Part shown: positions 7,150 through 24,652 of the stretch, piece after piece | Numbering within the stretch: position 1 is the stretch's first letter | Layout of the letters: the number at the start of each line of letters is the position of its first letter | Assembly: GCA_030605085.1 (NCBI GenBank) | Contig: JAUWBH010000059.1 | Span: forward strand, 1 to 30,832 | Reading direction: 5' to 3' | DNA from: Promethearchaeota archaeon | Lineage (GTDB): Archaea; Asgardarchaeota; Lokiarchaeia; Sigynarchaeales; SOKP01 | Length of the DNA stretch: 30,832 nt | The notes under the pieces: generated by a model | What the model was told of the DNA's origin: nothing | Seen by the model: only the letters and a program-made list of their open reading frames with translations | The model's database searches: none | Position numbers and translations under genes: made by a program

Positions 7150-8401
7150 TAGTCTAGACCATTAAAATGAATAAAACTATACTCACTTTATTTCAAATAA
7201 TAGTATCAACGATGTTGTGTTGAATTATTTGTGGCATCAGTCCGAATGCCTCTATCCCATCAACCGAAACGGAATTTGGGAATGCTTTTCTCAAGATGTT
7301 GTATCCCGCATTTACATCTGCGTTAATAATCGTTCCGTTTGAAGTTCTAAACAATCCTCTTGAGATTCTTCTTCCTAAATATGTATCGTGTTTTTTAATT
7401 TCTTCATTGTCTAAGAAGCTACATTTTGATGTGTAAGATTCGTCATCCGTTTCAAACTGTATTCCTACTAATTTCGATTTATATTTGATTTGTTGTAGTA
7501 ATTTATGAAAAGGAATTTGAACGAAATTTTGGTTATTTTTCTTTCCTATTTTAATTTTTTGTTTCCAACCATGATTGTATCCAATTACGATCGTTCCAAT
7601 ATTATTTTGAACGCAATAATCTACGATAAATCGCGAAATTCGATGAAATAATGTAGTAATCTTATTATTTCGTTTCAAATGTAATTTCATAATTCTTTCT
7701 GTATCCTGAAAATTACCTTTTTTGGTTTCAACGCTTCTGTAATACGCTAATTGTTTGTTGTAAAATTGATTTATGGATTTTAAAATCTTACCTTTAACAA
7801 CAATCGGCTTTTTACCGATATTGTTTACCGCAGTTATAAGATTGTTCAATCCCAGATCAATTGCTAAAATATTAGCTTGATTTAATCCTAAATTCTGTTC
7901 TTCTTTTTCGTACACGATTTCTATTTTGTAATTTATTCCTAACGGTACAATTCTTATTTCTTTTAATTTATTTTGAATCCTTGTTTTTATAGGTTTGAGA
8001 TTAACTCTTTTAGGAAAGTAAAGATAACCATTCTGAATTCTACATTGTTGATTTGTAAAAATAACAATAGACTCTCCGTTCTTTTGTTTGTATTTTGGAA
8101 TCTGTGGTTTTCTTTTATATTTATGAGAATTTACTTTATAATCTTTATTAGCTCTAAAATACGATTTCCAATTTCTTGAAACATACTTAAGAATCTGCTG
8201 AGATGTTTGAGAAGGTAAATTTTCATACGCTTCTTTGTGTTTAAGAATGAAATCCAAATCGTAATAAGAAAGAATATTACTCAAATGAAAGAAATCTTGT
8301 CTAAAGTACCAATTAGCTAAATTGTATAAATTTTTGGCTTTATGACACAAATTAGATAATTTCATCGAAGATTTTACTTGAACAATCTCAGTTAATCTCA
8401 T
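7150..8401 (-). mobile_element. TnpB-only IS200/IS605-type element
   Basis: No tnpA is present, so this is an IS1341-like element carrying tnpB alone. The sequence just past the tnpB stop (7150-7192) recurs at 9944-9983, which places the element's right end at about 7150. No repeat marking the left end was found in 8402-8651, an AT-rich stretch without a gene. Confidence 0.65.
7193..8401 (-). CDS. tnpB: TnpB RNA-guided nuclease (OrfB family)
   Basis: A complete 402-residue TnpB. The first RuvC acid is in LAIDLGLNNLIT and the third in NADVNAGYNIL. The zinc-finger region is reduced to ESYTSKCSFLDNEE. In the second RuvC position, where many TnpBs have IVIEDL, it has IGTIVIGYNHGWKQ with no Glu. 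The acidic cluster FETDDESYTSK could supply it, as I recall for a TnpB subfamily with a relocated glutamate. TnpB nucleases are guided by an RNA made from the 3' end of their own element. Start ATG 8401 gives the usual N-terminus. It ends in TGA. A 3' fragment of a close relative lies at 9984-10082. Confidence 0.9.
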   Translation of the reverse strand: MRLTEIVQVKSSMKLSNLCHKAKNLYNLANWYFRQDFFHLSNILSYYDLDFILKHKEAYENLPSQTSQQILKYVSRNWKSYFRANKDYKVNSHKYKRKPQIPKYKQKNGESIVIFTNQQCRIQNGYLYFPKRVNLKPIKTRIQNKLKEIRIVPLGINYKIEIVYEKEEQNLGLNQANILAIDLGLNNLITAVNNIGKKPIVVKGKILKSINQFYNKQLAYYRSVETKKGNFQDTERIMKLHLKRNNKITTLFHRISRFIVDYCVQNNIGTIVIGYNHGWKQKIKIGKKNNQNFVQIPFHKLLQQIKYKSKLVGIQFETDDESYTSKCSFLDNEEIKKHDTYLGRRISRGLFRTSNGTIINADVNAGYNILRKAFPNSVSVDGIEAFGLMPQIIQHNIVDTII

Positions 8402-10638: not shown

Positions 10639-11751
10639 TTACATGATTTTCTCCATAAATTTTTCCTTACGTTGGACTTTCGATTGAGAAAACGCAGTAA
10701 TTAGATTTTCCATTTTATTTTTTCTATTGGTATCAAGATCTAAGGAAATTATAACACCTGCATCAATAACTTTTGCTAATATCTCTTTTCCTTTCTCTGT
10801 TCGTGTGATTACAGTAGTGTATTTATCAGGTGAACCTAGTCCTCCAAACGAAATATCAGCATAAATATTAGTAAAATCGCTGCATGCGTTACAAGCAAGG
10901 CGCATATAATCGTTTAAATGGTTAAAAGGGATATGTATAACTTTCTCGCCAGTCCCTACATCTTTAAGTTTTAGGATTAAATCTTCTTTAATATTTATTT
11001 TTTTAATATCAGTAAAGTTTATATTAAAATCTTTTTCAAATTTTTCAATTTGAGTTCTTTCGAAAAGGAAATTTTCATAACAAAATAATCCAAGGCAGAT
11101 CTCAATATTCTGACTTGGTGTAACTCCAAGATCTTGCATGCATCTAATTGTATAAAGTTGACAAGGCGTTCCAACAACAGCTAATTTTTTGAACTTATAA
11201 TGGTTTAATTTAGATATTGAATGCGTATACGTACAAAATTTCTGGATTTCGTCCAATTGAGGAGATATCTCCAATTTTGCCCCAGAAGCCTTAAGTAAAG
11301 CATCTCTACTATTTGTGAATGTAGCTTCTCTCGAAAAAGGAGCTTCTGCTTTAGATACGATTGCTCCGTCAATTAATTTTTTCTCAATTAAATAGTTTAT
11401 AATTGAGTTTACAACGCCTCCGTCTGTACCATATTTTAGGAAGTCTTTATCTGTAGCTTGACACGAATAAATTTCTTCGTAATTACCTAGTGGCATAGAA
11501 GAAAAATCAGAAAATTTATACGTTTTATTAAGTTCAGCATCTAATATATGTGTCTGAGGGCAAATATAATAACATATTCCACACTCAAGACATTTATCTT
11601 TATTGATATATTCTGGAGGAGAATAAGGATCCTTTAAACCAATAACATCGAATTCTGCTGAACTGCAGAAGGAAACGCAGCCGCCACATTCTTGACAAAT
11701 TCCTTTTTTATGGACCTCTTCAATTAAATCTTCAAATGTTTTTGAACTCAT
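10639..11751 (-). CDS. FrhB-like F420/flavin oxidoreductase subunit (frhB2)
   Basis: A 370-residue member of the coenzyme F420 hydrogenase/dehydrogenase beta-subunit family. Two N-terminal [4Fe-4S] clusters (CQECGGCVSFC, about residues 18-28; CLECGICYYICP, about 54-65) precede the FrhB domains. DGGVVNSIINYLIEKKLIDGAIV and VVGTPCQLYTIRCMQ are family signatures, and CNACSDFTNIYADISFGGLG supplies the usual Cys pair near the flavin site. Relatives carry FAD and pass electrons between F420H2 and iron-sulfur partners. It lies 18 nt after frhB1 and is the last gene of the hdrA operon, so it probably acts as an electron-input or output module of that complex. F420 as partner is inferred. Confidence 0.85.
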   Translation of the reverse strand: MSSKTFEDLIEEVHKKGICQECGGCVSFCSSAEFDVIGLKDPYSPPEYINKDKCLECGICYYICPQTHILDAELNKTYKFSDFSSMPLGNYEEIYSCQATDKDFLKYGTDGGVVNSIINYLIEKKLIDGAIVSKAEAPFSREATFTNSRDALLKASGAKLEISPQLDEIQKFCTYTHSISKLNHYKFKKLAVVGTPCQLYTIRCMQDLGVTPSQNIEICLGLFCYENFLFERTQIEKFEKDFNINFTDIKKINIKEDLILKLKDVGTGEKVIHIPFNHLNDYMRLACNACSDFTNIYADISFGGLGSPDKYTTVITRTEKGKEILAKVIDAGVIISLDLDTNRKNKMENLITAFSQSKVQRKEKFMEKIM

Positions 11752-11769
11752 AATAAATGAATATCTTTT

Positions 11770-13273
11770 TTATTTATTGTTTTCATATAAGCTGATTGTT
11801 TTGCATTTTTTTCTTTTAATCTCTCCAATTCTTTCTACGAGGGGCTGTCCTGGTTTGATATCTTTTAAAGCTTTGGACTTAATCAATTTTGCTTTGATGG
11901 CACCTTTGAATATATCATCCCCTTCTTTCGTACGTGTAATTACTGAAGACCAACCACCTTGAGAACCGATCGATCCAACAGAAATATCCGCATAATCAGA
12001 GGTTAGATCTTCACAAAAATGACAATTATCCCGTGCATAAGATTGGACTTCTTTTAATTCAACGGCCATCTCTTCCCCAGATTTTAGATTAATAATGAAT
12101 TTACCCTTATCTATATTCATTTTGGTTAAATTTTGTATATCTTGTTCGAACTTATCCTTTACCAGATTGATGATGCTCTCATAGCTGAAGGACTCCATGC
12201 AGAACAATCCAATCGTATATTTTATGTTCTTGAAAAAGGGTAACCCACTAGGGAATAGGTTTCCTTTAGCAATCGCTTTCATCATACAAGGAACTCCTAC
12301 GATCGCAATCTTTTCGTATTTTTTCGTTTTGTCAATTATTGATAAAGAGGGAGAATTGGCGTATTTAGTTCCACCAGTTTTATACAACTCTTTTACATCG
12401 TCCACGATTATAGGTTCGGGTCTCCATAAATCTTTTGAATGTTGAACCGCAACAATTGCATCTACTAAGTTATTTGTCAATAAATACTCAAGTAAGGAAG
12501 TTACAATCCCTCCATCTTGTCTTACTTTTATAATTTCTTCTTTTGTAGTAGTACCTGAATATGCGTTTATGTATGCCCCTATTTTATCAGACCATTTCAA
12601 TTTCTTATCCAACCTTTTTATGCTCTTATAAGCTTGGTTAATTAAAAAGGAACGAGGACAAACCGTAAAACATAATCCGCACTTCATACAAGTTTCTTCG
12701 TTAATCTCTAAGTTATCTGCTGTTGTGGTAATCGCATCGACAGGACATACAGAAGAACACCATCCGCATTGACAGCATACTCCTGCATCAAAAACTATCG
12801 AAACAGGTTCAAAATAATGTTCAACAAAATCTTCAGAAAGCTCTTTGACTTGATACCTAAAAAAATACTCTTTTTCTTCGACTTCTTTTTCTACTCCCTT
12901 TATTTTTTTTTATTACTTTTTTAACTTTTATTTCAACAAGTTCTTCCACATAACCTTGTTCTTTTAAATAAATCACATCCCTTATCACATTCTCGGGTGG
13001 AAAATCTATTATTTTTTCAGCAATTTCCTCTAAGAATAAAGGATCTAATCCTCTCATTTTTTCTAAAACTAATTTTCTTTCAGTTTCAGCGTCAATCATT
13101 TGATCTAAAATGTCATAGAACTCGTTTTCACTATATTTACCTGTCTTTAAAATTTCATCTTTAGCTTCAAAAAAAGCTCTAACTTGAAAATTTTCTGCCG
13201 CCTTATAAGTCGCTTCCATTAAAGCTTTAGGCGACAGCTTGTCGAAATTCTTATTATTTTTAATTTGAACCAT
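11770..13273 (-). CDS. FrhB-like oxidoreductase with N-terminal helical domain, frameshifted (frhB1)
   Basis: Two frames join into one protein of about 500 residues. The first (13273 down to a TAG at 12857-12859) encodes a charged, helix-rich domain (FDKLSPKALMEATYKAAENF, then EIAEKIIDFPPENVIRDVIY). The second encodes CCQCGWCSSVCPVDAI and CMKCGLCFTVCP [4Fe-4S] motifs, then DGGIVTSLLEYLLTNNLVDAIVA, GVPCMMKAIAKGN and CHFCEDLTSDYADISVGSIG of the FrhB family. Removing one base from the A9 run (T9 at 12903-12911 on the plus strand) makes the join continuous (VIKKIKGVEKEVEEKEYFF). This is either a homopolymer indel or a slippery-site frameshift. It sits between mvhD and frhB2 and is probably part of the same complex. 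Confidence 0.8.
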
Positions 13274-13280
13274 ATTTCCA

Positions 13281-13389
13281 TCATTCTTTATAATTCTTTC
13301 AAAAAAATATAAAAAAACACTAAAAACTTTTAAAAACCCCTTACCCTAGCATGGTTAGTCATCTTGTAACTAAAATTTTTTTACAAGAA
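13281..13389 (-). promoter_or_regulatory. mvhD 3' region, candidate SECIS location
   Basis: Archaeal SECIS elements lie in the 3' untranslated region, and this roughly 115-nt gap is the only sizeable one after the UGA-containing genes. It holds a 7-bp stem CTTGTAA/TTACAAG (13363-13369 with 13381-13387), then AAGATGAC and the GC-rich CCATGCTAGGGTAAGGGG, which can form short stems. I could not settle on one convincing SECIS fold by eye. One element here could serve both genes if they share a transcript. Confidence 0.3.
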
Positions 13390-13851
13390 TCATTCAACAG
13401 GGGTAGTTAAGACTTTTTTTACTTCTGATTTTTGTGCGGTTTCAAGTGACTTGATCGGATTTGGTCCAGCCCTATGAACCTTTTCTACTGCGTCTTCAAT
13501 GCTTTTTACTAATTTCTGTGACTCCGCTCCACTTAGCCAATATTGATTAATTCTCTGATTTCCGAATCCCCTACGATCTAATATTCTATTTGCCAAATCC
13601 ACGTGTGTTTGAGCTTTAAAATTACCATTTTTGAATTGACACTCGTTTGGTCGTCAACCTACAATCATAACTCCGTCAGCTCCAGATTTTATAGCGTATA
13701 GTAGGTGTTTCACATCAATCCTACCAGTGCATCTTAGTTTAACGATTTTTACTTCTGGAGTATATTTTAAACGCGACATCCCAGCCAAATCTGCCGCACT
13801 ATAGCCTCATTTTAAACAAGCAAACATAATTATATTATAATTATTTTCCAT
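13390..13851 (-). CDS. mvhD: MvhD/VhuD-like iron-sulfur subunit with two selenocysteine codons
   Basis: A 153-residue protein when two in-frame UGA codons are read through. Codon 15 (13807-13809) gives FACLKUGYSAADLAG, where the family has CxxC. Codon 66 (13654-13656) gives VGURPNEC, where the family has GCHPGDC. Cys12, Cys in RCTGR and Cys in NEC are kept, so four or five ligands of the [2Fe-2S] cluster remain as Cys or Sec. MvhD passes electrons to HdrA, and Sec-containing VhuD is known in methanogens. The GAGGTG site (13860-13865) lies 8 nt before ATG 13851, 22 nt after hdrA. The terminal codon is also UGA, followed by TTC TTG TAA, so a three-residue extension with a third Sec cannot be excluded. 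Confidence 0.9.
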
Positions 13852-13859
13852 TTTTTGTA

Positions 13860-13865
13860 CACCTC
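13860..13865 (-). promoter_or_regulatory. Ribosome binding site of mvhD
   Basis: GAGGTG on the minus strand, 8 nt before the ATG at 13851. It supports the long reading frame that requires UGA decoding, because the later GTG/ATG candidates after the UGA codons have no comparable site. Confidence 0.6.
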
Positions 13866-13873
13866 TATATAGT

Positions 13874-15835
13874 TTAAGATTCAAGTAAGGCAGAAATTTC
13901 AGAGTATAGTTGATTGTCTCTATAATATCGAATATCTATTGCTATTGTAGGACAACAAGTCGCACAAATTCCACATCCATCGCAATTTATTTCGTCTACT
14001 ACAGCGCCTTCTGTATCAACCATCTTAATGGCACCTTTAGGACATTCTTTTTCGCATCTGCCACAGATTATACAAATGTCTTTGTTGACTTCGGCAACTA
14101 TAAGTTCTATGTCAACTTCTCCTGGAGAAGTTAGTTCGGCTACTTTACTCGCAGCGGCTCGTGCTTGGGAAACCGAATATGCAATATTTTTCGGACCCTG
14201 AGCGAATCCCGCGATAAAGATACCTTTAGTTTTAGTCTCTTGTGGCATTAGTCCAAAATGAGATTCCGTAAGGAAGCCATACCGATCCGCATCTAAATTT
14301 AACACTTTGGCAATTTGCTCCGTGCCTTTTGACGGTAACGCAGCAGACGATAGGATTACTAAATCAGCGTCGATGTTAATAATCTCATCTGTCAAAGACG
14401 AATAGACTCGAACTTTTACATTCTTAGTTTCAGTGTCCTCGCTAATTTCCCCGACTTTTCCCCGAATCATTTTGATACCTGCTTCTTTAGCACGCTGATA
14501 ATACTCCTCAAAGCCTTTTTCATTCGTTCTGATATCAATGTAGCAAATCGTAATGTTAGCATCAGGAAACTCTTCTAAAAGCAATCGACCGTTTTTAAGA
14601 GCCAACATACAACAAACGCCGCTACAATAGGTTCTTTCAGTTTCCCGACTTCCAACGCACTGAATAAATACAATTTCTTTAGGTTTCTTATCGTCCGAAA
14701 TTCTATGCACATGTCCCTCAAGTGGGCCATTAGGAGCCAACATTCGCTCTAACTGTGGTTGCGTAATGACATTTTCAAACTCCCCGTACCCATATTCGCC
14801 AAAAGGTTCATAGATATCCCAACCAGATGCAATGATAGCCGTGCCCACTTTAAAATTCATTTCTTTCGGTTCTTGACTGAAATCTATGGCATCTAATTCG
14901 CACGCTTCAACGCAACTGAAGCATTCAACACACGCGTTTCTATTGATGTCGTATACAAAAGGAACCGCTTGACCAAACGCAATATCAATTGCTTTTCGCG
15001 CTCCTAGATATTCGTCAAAGTAATTCTCACAATAAATAGGACAGACCTCTGTACAAGCTCCGCAACCGTTACAATCGTCGGTAGTGTATCGCGGCTTCAA
15101 TTCAACAGTTACATCGTAATTCCCGACATATCCTTCTACTTTTTTCACTTCAGCGTAACTTATAATTTCAATATTCTCGTTTCTGTTTACTTCTAGCATT
15201 TTTGGACCGCAAATTCATATCGCGCAATCGTCAGTAGGGAAGGTTCTATCCAGTTGAGCCATTCTACCTCCAATAGTAGATTTTCTTTCGACTAGATAAA
15301 CTTTAATTCCCTGATTAGCTAAGTCCAACGCAGCGTTCATACCAGCGATTCCGCCACCAATAACTAAAGTAGCTTTTTCGACTGGGACAGTTTTGATTGG
15401 AACCACTTCTAAGAGTTTTGATCGTGCAATACCGCTTTTTACTAGAGATTTCGCTTTTTCTAAAGCTTCTTCCTTAGTTTCCGTGACCCAAGAGCAATGT
15501 TCTCTTACATTTACCATTTGAAAGTAGTAGGGATTTAAATCTGTTTTCGCGAGGGTGTCTCGATAAATGGGTTCGTGGGTTCTTGGGGTTCAAGCAGATG
15601 CTACTATTCTAGTTAAATTTTTTTCTTTGATATCTTCTATAATTTCATTTTGCGCAGCGTCAGTTCATAGAAACGCGTTAGCTTTCGAAATTATCACATT
15701 TTCGTCTATTTCCTTAGCATATTCTACTAATTTACCGCAATCAACTTTTCCTCTAATATTTATACCTCACTGACACGCGTAATATCCGATTCTCTGTTCT
15801 CCGTCTTCATTCCGTTGATTATGACTTTTTTCCAT
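13874..15835 (-). CDS. hdrA: HdrA with four selenocysteine codons
   Basis: A full-length 653-residue HdrA when four in-frame UGA codons are decoded: codon 23 (ACQU, family CHCG), codon 57 (FLUTDAAQ, family MCSDPGQ), codon 82 (ASAUTPRTHEP, family ACSPRTHEP) and codon 207 (DDCAIUICGPKM, family DCSxCxxxPKM). The FAD motif GGGIAG is at about 160-165. Four ferredoxin-like clusters keep all their Cys (CNGCGACTEVCP near 255, CVECFSCVEAC near 302, and CIICGRCEKECP and CDGCGICATCCP near the C-terminus). HdrA is the flavin subunit that splits electrons between ferredoxin and a disulfide or other acceptor. A GAGGTGG lies 14 nt upstream of ATG 15835, rather far. It is the first gene of the operon with mvhD, frhB1 and frhB2. 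No HdrB or HdrC is in the window. Methanogen HdrA with one Sec is established; four is more than I recall. Confidence 0.93.
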
Positions 15836-20858: not shown

Positions 20859-22388
20859 ATGACGGAAAACGAGGTTGATCACGAGCAAGCTAGTACCAAA
20901 TATAAATATTCCTTTGATTACATTCAAAAGAAACTCGAAGGTAAAAAGATTTCTTAACTAAAGAACTTGCTTAGAAGAGATTCTTACGGAATGTTAATGA
21001 AAGAAATTATCCGAACTGGTGTTTGTACTGAATGTGGGACTTGTGCCGCTGTGTGTCCCGTTTTAGAATGGGACGAATTAGCAGGTCAACCAAAATTAAT
21101 CGGAAAATGCACGGGTTGTGGGATATGTTATAATCAATGTCCTAGGACGATTACTGATCCTATCCAGCTAATGGGCGAATTTAAAACGGGATATGTGGCT
21201 AATACGAATATTCCTGAAGTAATTGGAGGTCAGGATGGGGGAACAGTGACTAGTCTTTTATGCTATCTATTTGACGAACATTTAATCGATGCCGCAATAG
21301 TGACAATGAGAGACCCAAATAACCCGTGGCATCCTGTTGCTCAGATTATAACAAGTAAAGATGATGCCATAAAATCTTCGGGCTCTATTTATAGTCATTC
21401 TCAAACGGTTGAGGCATTAATGGAAGCTATTCGTAAAGATTATCGTTCAATTGCGTTTGTTGGCACGCCGTGTAATATAGATGCAGTTGACAAAATGTTT
21501 AGTAGTCCTACGGGAATGTTAAAATATTTTATGCGATGCCACGTACTCAAGATTGGGTTGTTCTGTATGGATTCTTTTGCACCAGAAGCGTTATATCCAT
21601 TTTTTGAAAAGGAAGGTATCGATTTGGCTAAAGTCGTTAAAATGGACATTAATAAAGGTAAATTCCATTTATATTACGAGAATCAAGAAGAACCAGTTAA
21701 ATCTTTTACAATTAAACAATTAGACAAGTTTAAATCAAGTAGCTGTAATTTCTGTACTGATTTGGCGGCAGAAAAAGCGGATCTTTCAGTAGGTTCAGTA
21801 GGAAGCGGTCCTAATAAAAATACTGTTTTTGCTAGAACGGGTATGGGTGCTGAAATTATAGAAGATGCTGCTGAGAAAGGATATTTGAAAATAGAATCTT
21901 TTAACGCAATAAATCTGAACGCTGTACTATTTTTAGCGAAACTTAAGAAAGTATCTCAATATACCATCCAAAGAAGAAAAGTTTTCATTGTAAAAGACAC
22001 TGCTGAGGTAGAAGAGCCAAGAATTGAAACTAAACCTGAAGAAGTAGATGTTACAACTAAAACTTTACTTGGTGCAAGAAGGGCATTAAGCGTTACTCAA
22101 AAGTTAAAGGAAAATGAAAAGTCTATTGAATTTTCAATTACAAATACTATAGGATTTACTTTAGAAGGCATTAAAATTCGGATTGCGACTCTTGACGAAT
22201 TATTTGAGAAAAATGTGTGGAACACAAAAATTAAAGAAATGTTTCCTTTTGAGGCCCTTGAGATAAATTATCCTTTGGATATTAAGGATGGTGAAGAAAT
22301 TTCGGGAAATGTATTAGTTGAAGCGTCTACAGAATCTTTTGGGAAGATATTTTCCAGAACTTATAAATTAAAAAAAGAAACATCGTGA
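20859..22388 (+). CDS. FrhB-like oxidoreductase fused to a beta-rich domain, interrupted by TAA (frhB3)
   Basis: A third FrhB-type protein. From ATG 20859 the frame reads MTENEVDHEQASTKYKYSFD and then IQKKLEGKKIS, meets TAA at 20955-20957, and continues in the same frame with LKNLLRRDSYGMLMKEIIRT. Clusters CTECGTCAAVCP and CTGCGICYNQCP are followed by DGGTVTSLLCYLFDEHLIDAAIV, VGTPCNIDAVDKM and CNFCTDLAAEKADLSVGSVG of the FrhB family. The last ~110 residues (from about KTLLGARRALSVTQKL) are rich in alternating hydrophobic residues and look like an Ig-like or CARDB-like beta sandwich, not usual for FrhB. Translation could restart at TTG 20967 or ATG 20991. The stop could be a mutation or a pair of compensating indels. 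It is unlinked to the hdrA operon but is an obvious paralogue of its FrhB genes. Confidence 0.8.
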
Positions 22389-22942: not shown

Positions 22943-23447
22943 TTCTGGTCCATTAATTCATCTAGCAAAAGTAGGTTTAATTGATTTTTTACTTAGACTT
23001 TTTGATAAAATTCTGATCCCCGAATCAGTTTATGATGAAGTGGTAATAAAAGGTAAAGAAAAAGGACATTCTGATGCACTAATTATTGAACAAGCTATTT
23101 TGGATAATAAGATCGAAGTGAAAAAAGTAGAAATAGGAAATGAAGAATTTATCTCATCCAAATTACACCCAGGAGAACTTAAAGCTATAAAACTTACTTT
23201 CAATTCAAAGATTAAACTCATTTTATTAGATGATGAAGAAGCCAGAATCTTTGCTAGAGGATTGAATCTTAAGGTAAAAGGAACCCTAGGAATTCTAATT
23301 GATTTAGTAAAAAATGGGTATTTTAATTTAAAAAAAGCTTTCCATTATCTAAGGGAGTTAAATTCCATAATGTATTTATCATCCGATGTGTATAATTATG
23401 TAGAAGATGAGCTTAAAAAGATAAATGGAAAGGAATATTCCGCTTGA
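22923..23447 (+). CDS. PIN-domain toxin (DUF3368)
   Basis: A 174-residue PIN-like RNase. AVSNSGPLIHLAKVGLIDFL matches the DUF3368 start (SNxSPLIxLxxIG), LIPESVYDEV holds the second acid, HPGELKAIKL the third, and LLDDEEARIFARGLNLKVKG the C-terminal acids. It is expected to cut RNA when unbound from the antitoxin. ATG 22923 is used because MRIAVSN begins the conserved strand and fits the 20-nt overlap with the antitoxin. Confidence 0.88.
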   Translation: MRIAVSNSGPLIHLAKVGLIDFLLRLFDKILIPESVYDEVVIKGKEKGHSDALIIEQAILDNKIEVKKVEIGNEEFISSKLHPGELKAIKLTFNSKIKLILLDDEEARIFARGLNLKVKGTLGILIDLVKNGYFNLKKAFHYLRELNSIMYLSSDVYNYVEDELKKINGKEYSA

Positions 23448-23709: not shown

Positions 23710-24652
23710 ATGAAAATTAGTTTGGTAGGTCTTGGAGGTTGCGGAAAAACTTCAGTATATTCAGTTGCTTTTGCTGAAGCAACACCAGAGCAAACCAAAT
23801 CCTTAAGCCCTACGATACTCTACGAGACAAGACGTCATCTTTTCCTTGGCTTACAAGTCGGTATATTCGATTTCGGTGGGCAAACAGATTAGAACTATTG
23901 ATTTTAACCTGGCCTAAGAACAATACAGAAAGGAATATATGGATAAGCCTGAGATATTTAGAGGGACTGATATCTTAATCCCTATTGTTGATCTCCATGA
24001 TCCTGATAAATACGATGAAGCAAAAGAATATTTTGTTGGGCTATTAGATATATACCGTAAAAATAACGAAAAACCAAAAATATTCTTGTTCTTGCATAAA
24101 TATGACACGGAGAGCTATCAAAAGGAATTATTAGATACTAATGTAAAAAATGCGAAAGAGATTTTTTTAGATTTGTTTAAGGATTACGATTTTAATCATA
24201 TGCTTACTAGTATATACGAACACGATAAATTAGCGAAAACATTTCGAGACATATTGATGTCCTCGTATGCCGAGTTAAAAGGCCATGTCGAAAAAGCAGA
24301 GGCGCAGCTTAAAGAAATTAAAGCTAAAATCATTGTTGCGGATATTTCGGGAAATGTTATCGTCCATAACGTTCAAGGAGTTAGTAGGGGATTAACTTTA
24401 AGAGGCGATTTAAGAGACTTTATTAACGCTTGCAACACTGTGCGCGAAAACATCTTTATGTCTGATTCAGCTGAATTTAAGGGTCGAACTGACGAGGGAA
24501 AAGAAATCGAACTGTACATTTTTAAATACATCATCTCCGTACTTGTGATGAGTTCTGGAGAGTTAGATAGAGATTCGCAGGATAAACTCAACATATTATT
24601 AAAAGATATGAATCTTTTTGCGGATTTAATAATTTCAGCGCATACAGATTAA
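23710..24652 (+). CDS. Rag/Gtr-like small GTPase interrupted by a 34-nt insert
   Basis: Two coding parts, 23710-23883 and 23918-24652, join in frame to give about 302 residues. G1 is GLGGCGKTSV, G2 includes the Thr in SLSPTILYE, G3 is DFGGQ, and the G4-like motif is HKYD as in Rag GTPases (HKMD). The C-terminal part (AKIIVADISGNVIVHN onward, with LRGDLRDFINACNTVRENIF) resembles a roadblock/longin fold as in Rag proteins. Joining the parts gives GGQEQYRKEYMDKPEIFRGT, a natural Rag sequence. Without removal the first frame hits TAG eight nt after the break. GAGG (about 23699-23702) precedes the ATG. Rag relatives control nutrient signalling in eukaryotes; Asgard copies are common but their role is unknown. 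Confidence 0.8.
23884..23917 (+). other. 34-nt stop-containing insert in the GTPase (candidate intron)
   Basis: Precise removal joins CAA (Gln of DFGGQ) to GAA and restores the conserved frame. Boundaries are ambiguous by two bases because both ends carry AA. The insert carries several stop codons in the GTPase frame. At its start TGGGC can pair with GCCTA, and CAG with CTG, leaving AAA as a three-base bulge at the 5' junction. The expected second bulge of a bulge-helix-bulge intron at the 3' junction was not found, so the intron reading is tentative. Confidence 0.5.

Follow-up and report, generated by a model that had tools for sequence, protein, structure and literature searches.

Six predicted selenocysteine codons in an hdrA–mvhD gene pair of a Lokiarchaeial archaeon, with one candidate SECIS element for both genes

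Can two adjacent archaeal genes carry six in-frame UGA codons that are all read as selenocysteine (Sec), and which element would then direct the insertion? The question is raised by a stretch of 30,832 nucleotides (nt), hereafter the window, from a Promethearchaeota archaeon (Asgardarchaeota; Lokiarchaeia; Sigynarchaeales; contig JAUWBH010000059.1 of assembly GCA_030605085.1). A first-pass annotation of the window had reported in-frame UGA at codons 23, 57, 82 and 207 of a heterodisulfide reductase subunit A-like gene (hdrA) and at codons 15 and 66 of mvhD, at or next to conserved cysteine (Cys) positions, and had proposed a multi-selenocysteine redox operon. Reading of the frames confirmed all six codons, and the analysis added a candidate selenocysteine insertion sequence (SECIS) where mvhD ends, which would serve the two genes jointly, and a pair of conserved frhB-like genes further downstream. 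Comparisons rest on a scan of genome contigs that returned 56 loci of relatives, of which L001–L050, from Lokiarchaeota, are the 50 loci counted below. The features at the centre of the question are the following:

13874..15835, minus strand: hdrA, heterodisulfide reductase subunit A-like, four in-frame UGA read through (matches to the FAD, i.e., flavin adenine dinucleotide, domain and to two ferredoxin domains; PDB matches)
15767..15769, minus strand: UGA codon 23 of hdrA, predicted Sec, in a CxU motif of the N-terminal cluster domain (UGA in 47 of 48 covering loci, and behind a 10-residue insertion in the 48th)
15665..15667, minus strand: UGA codon 57 of hdrA, predicted Sec (48 loci: UGA in 32, Cys in 16)
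15590..15592, minus strand: UGA codon 82 of hdrA, predicted Sec (UGA in 48 of 48 loci)
15215..15217, minus strand: UGA codon 207 of hdrA, predicted Sec, in a CxxU motif of the FAD domain (UGA in 49 of 49 loci; X in 9sfi_A)
13390..13851, minus strand: mvhD (FlpD family, PF02662), two in-frame UGA read through (Pfam and PDB sequence matches)
13807..13809, minus strand: UGA codon 15 of mvhD, predicted Sec (UGA in 47 of 47 loci; X in 9sfi_K)
13654..13656, minus strand: UGA codon 66 of mvhD, predicted Sec (UGA in 46 of 46 covering loci; X in 9sfi_K)
13337..13403, minus strand: predicted SECIS element, eukaryote-like type I (pattern, covariation, covariance model)

With UGA read as U, hdrA forms a single frame of 653 residues from the ATG at 15835 to the TAA at 13874, while mvhD runs from the ATG at 13851 to a terminal UGA at 13392-13390. 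The two genes lie on the same strand with a gap of 22 nt (13873-13852), and their order is the same in 47 loci of relatives. The hdrA product has the HdrA type I layout, with an N-terminal iron-sulfur domain (recognised by alignment to PDB HdrA alone), a FAD domain, and inserted and C-terminal ferredoxin domains, mvhD being unfused; the match to the HdrA2 model NF040770 (756 bits) is below the curated cut-off of 1100, and it is the separate mvhD that matches the end of this model.

Three HdrA chains from the PDB (9sfi_A, 5odc_A and 8rvu_a) align to the hdrA product across almost its entire length. All three have Cys at columns 23, 57 and 82; at column 207, 5odc and 8rvu have Cys and 9sfi has X. 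Similarly, columns 15 and 66 of mvhD are Cys in 9sw2_D and 5odc_D and X in 9sfi_K. The database output does not state what X stands for, and we take it to be Sec, as the sites coincide with known methanococcal Sec sites. U207 aligns with Cys197 of 5odc, a position presumably close to the flavin. Aligned to their families, all six UGAs thus fall exactly at columns occupied by Cys in HdrA and MvhD homologues, which sharpens what the first-pass annotation had described. Elsewhere in the window hdrA, every Cys column of the ferredoxin-type motifs, and every one in 393-409, does hold Cys. Were four UGAs placed at random on the 653 columns, the probability that all fall in the 32 Cys columns would be ~6e-6.

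The same pattern recurs in the relatives. In HdrA, the 50 Lokiarchaeota loci have 184 in-frame UGAs, of which 183 are on Cys columns and none occurs among 29,911 aligned non-Cys positions, the single exception being the column-23 UGA of L040, which is displaced by the 10-residue insertion; no in-frame UAA or UAG was found in HdrA of these 50 loci. Full-length HdrAs (n = 46) carry three UGAs in 11 cases (including L040, counted with three aligned), four in 33 and five in two, with rare additional UGAs at columns 305 (4/49), 308 (2/49) and 621 (1/48). In mvhD, no aligned column other than 15 and 66 has UGA in any of the 47 loci, and L050 has UAA at column 140, close to the end of the gene. When the window hdrA is compared with 37 relatives, the ratio of nonsynonymous to synonymous differences per site (pN/pS) is 0.23 before U23, 0.26 between U23 and U57, 0.21 between U57 and U82, 0.14 between U82 and U207, and 0.13 after U207; these values, computed for hdrA only, are rough, with synonymous sites nearly saturated (pS 0.67-0.86). 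Still, they suggest purifying selection on a single frame in each of the five segments.

These distributions bear on two rival accounts of the UGAs. According to the first, the genes are decayed, mis-sequenced or translated in pieces, for instance as the annotated 441-residue protein, which begins past codon 207. Indeed, 91 of 120 HdrA homologues among the matches listed are 441-443 residues long, i.e., the length remaining past UGA207 (the window's own included), and the neighbouring frhB-like gene is broken in its frame within an A-run. This account is nevertheless very improbable when set against the position of the UGAs at Cys columns in all 46 full-length orthologues and the low pN/pS of every segment, and a start past codon 207 would split the conserved DCxxCxxxPKM motif. 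According to the second, UGA has been reassigned in the source organism, to Trp or another residue, and 16 full-length database proteins (among the matches listed) do have W at columns 23, 82 and 207, where UGA has evidently been translated as Trp. Against it, UGA terminates eight of 25 tallied open reading frames (ORFs) of the window, including mvhD, although not every one of the 25 is a proven gene, and in-frame UGA is restricted to columns at which Cys-type HdrAs have Cys. Reassignment is therefore given next to no credence, and no wholesale change of the code is seen, in line with the first-pass annotation. (Among the database comparisons, a plasmid search returned one bacterial homologue.)

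The UGAs also extend to more distant copies. A phylum-wide search, in which at most five candidates were scored per genome, gave an HdrA match (E up to 0.001) in 225 of 227 genomes, with one to five UGAs in each row and, in one row, also a UAG (among the matches listed). From these matches 40 paralogues (50-54% identical) were picked as a non-random sample favouring rows with three and four UGAs; in it, HdrA has UGA at column 207 in 40/40, at column 23 in 39/40, at column 82 in 14 and at column 57 in four, or six if the UGAs lying one residue off this column in L120 and L132 are counted. Two paralogue UGAs fall off the Cys columns, at column 170 (Leu) in L134 and in an insertion near 119 in L135. 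Their mvhD, found for 38 of the 40, carries UGA at column 15 throughout (38); at column 66, UGA is found in 36 and Cys in two. On a quick LG+G4 tree of 90 orthologues and paralogues, the minimum number of changes is nine for column 57, six for column 82, one for column 23 and zero for column 207.

A candidate SECIS element is offered by a hairpin at the 3' end of mvhD. In order, it consists of a CCCC lower arm, the AUGA core (13393-13390), one base, an 8-bp upper stem, an 11-nt loop starting with AAAAA, one base, GA and the GGGG lower arm, which agrees with the type I eSECIS-like form (AUGA_[G/A]A core, upper stem of 7-15 bp, apical loop of 8-20 nt). The AUGA core contains the stop UGA of mvhD, an arrangement shared by 31 of 42 loci. 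A pattern search recovered the element in the window and in 42 of the 47 mvhD-bearing loci; of the five others, L021 is truncated, and L042-L045 carry diverged versions, all four of which are still matched by the covariance model. Among 43 aligned elements, 99.4% of the stem cells are paired, with two-sided changes at seven of eight pairs (24 cells), covariation being counted for the upper stem only and the lower arm being seen in the fold. None of 500 shuffles reaches any of the five measures used, and versions slid along the alignment pair at 38-60%. The covariance model, which was built from these same orthologue sequences, gives one match per locus in 37 of 38 orthologue loci (359 kb in total), the contig of L010 stopping at hdrA. 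The distance from hdrA codon 23 to the element is 2,376 nt in the window and 2,331-2,396 nt in 39 loci of relatives.

The terminal UGA of mvhD could itself be taken for a Sec codon, two codons ahead of a UAA. We disfavour this option and find the stop reading simpler, because the mvhD frame of 10 of 42 relatives is already closed by UAA or UAG ahead of the AUGA core, and that of one more by an earlier UGA. A further match to the SECIS model in the window, at 23310-23404 (E 0.99, marginal), was judged to be due to chance. Two side observations concern the element: on its 3' side, at 13357-13337 (minus strand), a small second hairpin of the CC-UUGCRA-GG type precedes the GGGG arm and appears by eye to be conserved in many relatives, in a variable register; and two relative genomes each have two SECIS-model matches about 300-400 nt apart (G006:C27:41909-42477 and G119:C46:15247-15773).

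A conserved SECIS also helps to judge a third account, in which the UGAs are read through mostly as Cys or another residue, e.g., by mischarged tRNA-Sec under scarce selenium, resulting in a mixture of Sec and Cys. Some precedent is suggested by a title on selenocysteine-independent UGA suppression in Methanococcus maripaludis, cited in PMC9622424, and the alternation of UGA and Cys at column 57 (of 48 relatives, 32 with UGA and 16 with Cys) points in the same direction. If Cys were equally good, however, UGA would be expected to drift to UGU or UGC, contrary to its retention at columns 23, 82 and 207 (144 of 145 cells) and at both mvhD columns, along with that of the SECIS. We regard such a mixture as improbable, if less so than decay or a changed code.

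The machinery for Sec was searched in the genomes of eight relatives and in 14 control genomes. SepSecS is above its cut-off in all eight relatives (E below 1e-110), as well as in four of the 14 controls. According to a comparison of coordinates, a match to the tRNA-Sec family lies 210-230 nt from SepSecS in six of the eight, and a SelB match lies at most 7 kb from it in seven. ARAGORN calls tRNA-SeC(UCA) in G003 and G005, while the best tRNA loci of the other six comprise three tRNA-Gly and three without a call. Finally, a SelD with one in-frame UGA is above cut-off in six of the eight. Since the searches for tRNA-Sec, SelB, SelD and PSTK also match control genomes, position and cut-off outweigh E-value for these genes.

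Taken together, the Cys columns, the recurrence in dozens of assemblies, the covarying SECIS after mvhD, and the tRNA-Sec candidates, SepSecS, SelB-like proteins and UGA-containing SelD of the relatives support the multi-selenocysteine redox operon put forward by the first-pass annotation. The multi-UGA HdrA/MvhD operon is real, and its six in-frame UGAs are, judging from the sequence comparisons, almost surely read as Sec. It is likely that the one SECIS at the end of mvhD directs all six and serves both cistrons. Mechanistically, an archaeal SelB/EFSec would deliver the Sec-tRNA, and recoding would affect those UGAs that precede the hairpin by more than about 230 nt. The UGA within the SECIS core would serve as the stop of mvhD, since the arriving ribosome would melt the hairpin.

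Part of this arrangement is known. In the available text of Huang et al. 2024 (PMC11227280), an Asgard hdrA-frhD pair is described with Sec in both proteins and one common type I eSECIS-like element; as in the window, the two genes are adjacent on one strand, they share one element with AUGA_GA and an A-rich loop, and the stop UGA often overlaps the AUGA motif. The count of Sec per protein is not mentioned in that text, whereas here HdrA has four UGAs and MvhD two, with up to five in the HdrA of relatives. Sec-containing HdrA is also reported from other Asgard lineages (PMC9723677, PMC11291895, as far as their available passages go), and HdrA and VhuD of Methanococcales are selenoproteins (PMC11097638), the vhuD of M. 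maripaludis having two TGA codons (PMC9622424). Compared by sequence with the pair of PDB 9sfi, the window is alike in that 9sfi_A has X at the U207 column and 9sfi_K has X at both VhuD columns; it differs in its three N-terminal UGAs, at columns that are Cys in 9sfi_A.

Regarding numbers, according to a 2022 review (PMC9499178) an archaeal selenoprotein gene has one or two Sec, located 70-1,500 nt from the SECIS, and a 2026 review (PMC13188914) mentions two or three Sec in a small subset of prokaryotic selenoproteins, its table listing one for HdrA and two for MvhD. CxxU is the motif listed for HdrA in PMC9312934, and the window HdrA differs from this one-Sec type in having CxxU plus three more UGAs. 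In the accessible parts of these sources, no statement of four Sec in one HdrA was found, though an earlier description may exist in Mariotti 2016 or in the supplements of Huang 2024; the first-pass annotation had likewise considered this number unusual, and the reviews agree with it. On this literature, a Sec-HdrA/MvhD pair with a shared SECIS is known in Asgard archaea, while an HdrA with four predicted Sec, or as many as five in relatives, is apparently new.

What the two proteins might do together is suggested by the genes downstream of mvhD, which are transcribed in the same direction:

12857..13273, minus strand: frhB-like gene, first piece, N-terminal domain without Pfam match (in relatives, a continuous frame with the next ORF)
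11770..12687, minus strand: same frhB-like gene, second piece, ferredoxin motif and FrhB/FdhB domain (found in 44 of 50 loci)
10639..11751, minus strand: second FrhB/FdhB-like gene, ferredoxin motifs (close copy in 36 of 50 loci)

The first frhB-like gene (11770-13273) has an unbroken frame in the 26 relatives read, while the window frame breaks in an A-run, and it is this break that accounts for the short FrhB ORF of 305 residues. Because the first ferredoxin Cys is seemingly missing from the 305-residue piece, a further Sec at its beginning was considered; it was rejected, as the Cys codon is present in the upstream frame. For the second gene, the hit in eight further loci is only a cross-match to the first, and three of these eight (L012, L024 and L032) are long enough that the second would have been seen. 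Other neighbours in the window are a further FrhB/FdhB-family protein with ferredoxin motifs at 20967-22388 (plus), on the strand opposite to hdrA, an IS605 OrfB/TnpB-type protein (PF01385, Cas12f1-like TNB domain) at 7193-8401 (minus), and a match to the Gtr1/RagA small GTPase family at 23939-24652 (plus), which fits an Asgard source.

A model for the complex is offered by Elp-Hdr of Methanothermobacter marburgensis, in which, according to the available text of PMC12350162, electrons of reduced coenzyme F420 (F420H2) pass from an FdhB-like subunit to the N-terminal clusters of HdrA, then to the [2Fe-2S] cluster of an MvhD homologue and finally to the bifurcating FAD. This text does not mention Sec for Elp-Hdr; the window differs in having two FrhB-like genes after mvhD, and in it no HdrBC was found. 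By this analogy, HdrA, MvhD and the two FrhB-like proteins would form a soluble electron-bifurcating or confurcating complex fed by F420H2. Its predicted input wire would run from the FrhB clusters through the N-terminal [4Fe-4S] of HdrA and the [2Fe-2S] of MvhD to the flavin, with Sec207 in the flavin domain. The N-terminal [4Fe-4S] would be held by columns 21, 23, 57 and 82, of which three would be Sec, and two of the five Cys columns of MvhD would be Sec as well; the selenolate ligands may tune the potential or resist oxidation.

Several results speak against one part or another of this picture. Taken alone, the window SECIS folds no better than its shuffles (z 0.36; 130 of 200 equal or better), Rfam has no SECIS match in the window (two weak unrelated matches fall on the SECIS stretch and nothing exceeds the gathering scores), and, of 36 paralogue loci with UGAs, the SECIS model recognises just 18 at E up to 1. 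As to the machinery, PSTK is above cut-off in none of the eight relatives, even though seven match at E below 1e-40, and only three and two of the eight pass the cut-off for tRNA-Sec and SelB, respectively. In the controls, the searches for tRNA-Sec, SelB and SelD match 14 of 14 genomes at E up to 0.001 (above cut-off: five, two and two) and that for PSTK matches nine of 14 (one above cut-off). No gene of the HdrB/HdrC type (CCG-domain protein) was found among the 20 window proteins scanned; CCG proteins are numerous elsewhere in the eight relative genomes. Finally, the ligand roles of columns 21, 23, 57 and 82 are read from conservation, and there is a further Cys at column 114 in 5odc and in the four database HdrAs of the Cys type that were compared, the same column being Asp in 9sfi and 8rvu and variable in a few Lokiarchaeota HdrAs. 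With these points taken into account, we are confident in the explanation as a whole, i.e., six Sec, one common SECIS and a predicted F420H2-fed complex with a Sec-rich input wire.

One part of this explanation is the role of the N-terminal Sec residues. Columns 21, 23, 57 and 82 are assigned as cluster ligands because Cys is kept there in the seven HdrAs looked at, three from the PDB and four of the Cys type from databases. If they do hold the N-terminal [4Fe-4S], three of its four ligands would be Sec. A different role is conceivable, in which Sec is inserted but Sec23, Sec57 and Sec82 bind no cluster, and CxU 21-23 and CxxU 204-207 act as selenenylsulfide redox pairs. This would suit C204xxU207, which is within the Pyr_redox_3 match (residues 154-247), as domain relatives of Pyr_redox_3 use redox-active cysteine pairs. 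The shared Cys of columns 21, 23, 57 and 82 in the seven HdrAs just mentioned, and the Asp at column 114 in 9sfi and 8rvu, argue against it, and we hold it to be unlikely, albeit the least unlikely of the alternatives weighed here. Returning to the cluster-ligand assignment, a three-Sec cluster together with Sec207 and the two Sec of MvhD would place all six UGAs on the electron-input branch. We lean, by a modest margin, towards this fuller proposal: an N-terminal [4Fe-4S] with one Cys and three Sec that, along with the two Sec of MvhD and Sec207, makes up a selenium-lined input branch, all six residues being placed by one SECIS at most 2.4 kb away over two cistrons.

In databases, predicted multi-Sec HdrAs are hidden by annotation, in entries with no more than the length remaining past UGA207 or with Trp at the UGA sites. 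For the biology of selenoproteins, four to five Sec per HdrA, with codon 23 at 2,331-2,396 nt from the SECIS, would extend the published limits on both the number of Sec and their distance. The switching of column 57 between UGA and Cys, at least nine times on the tree, would offer a natural test of the role of Sec as an iron-sulfur ligand, and, if the proposed ligands are true, the HdrA of these Lokiarchaeota would contain a natural cluster with mainly selenolate ligands.

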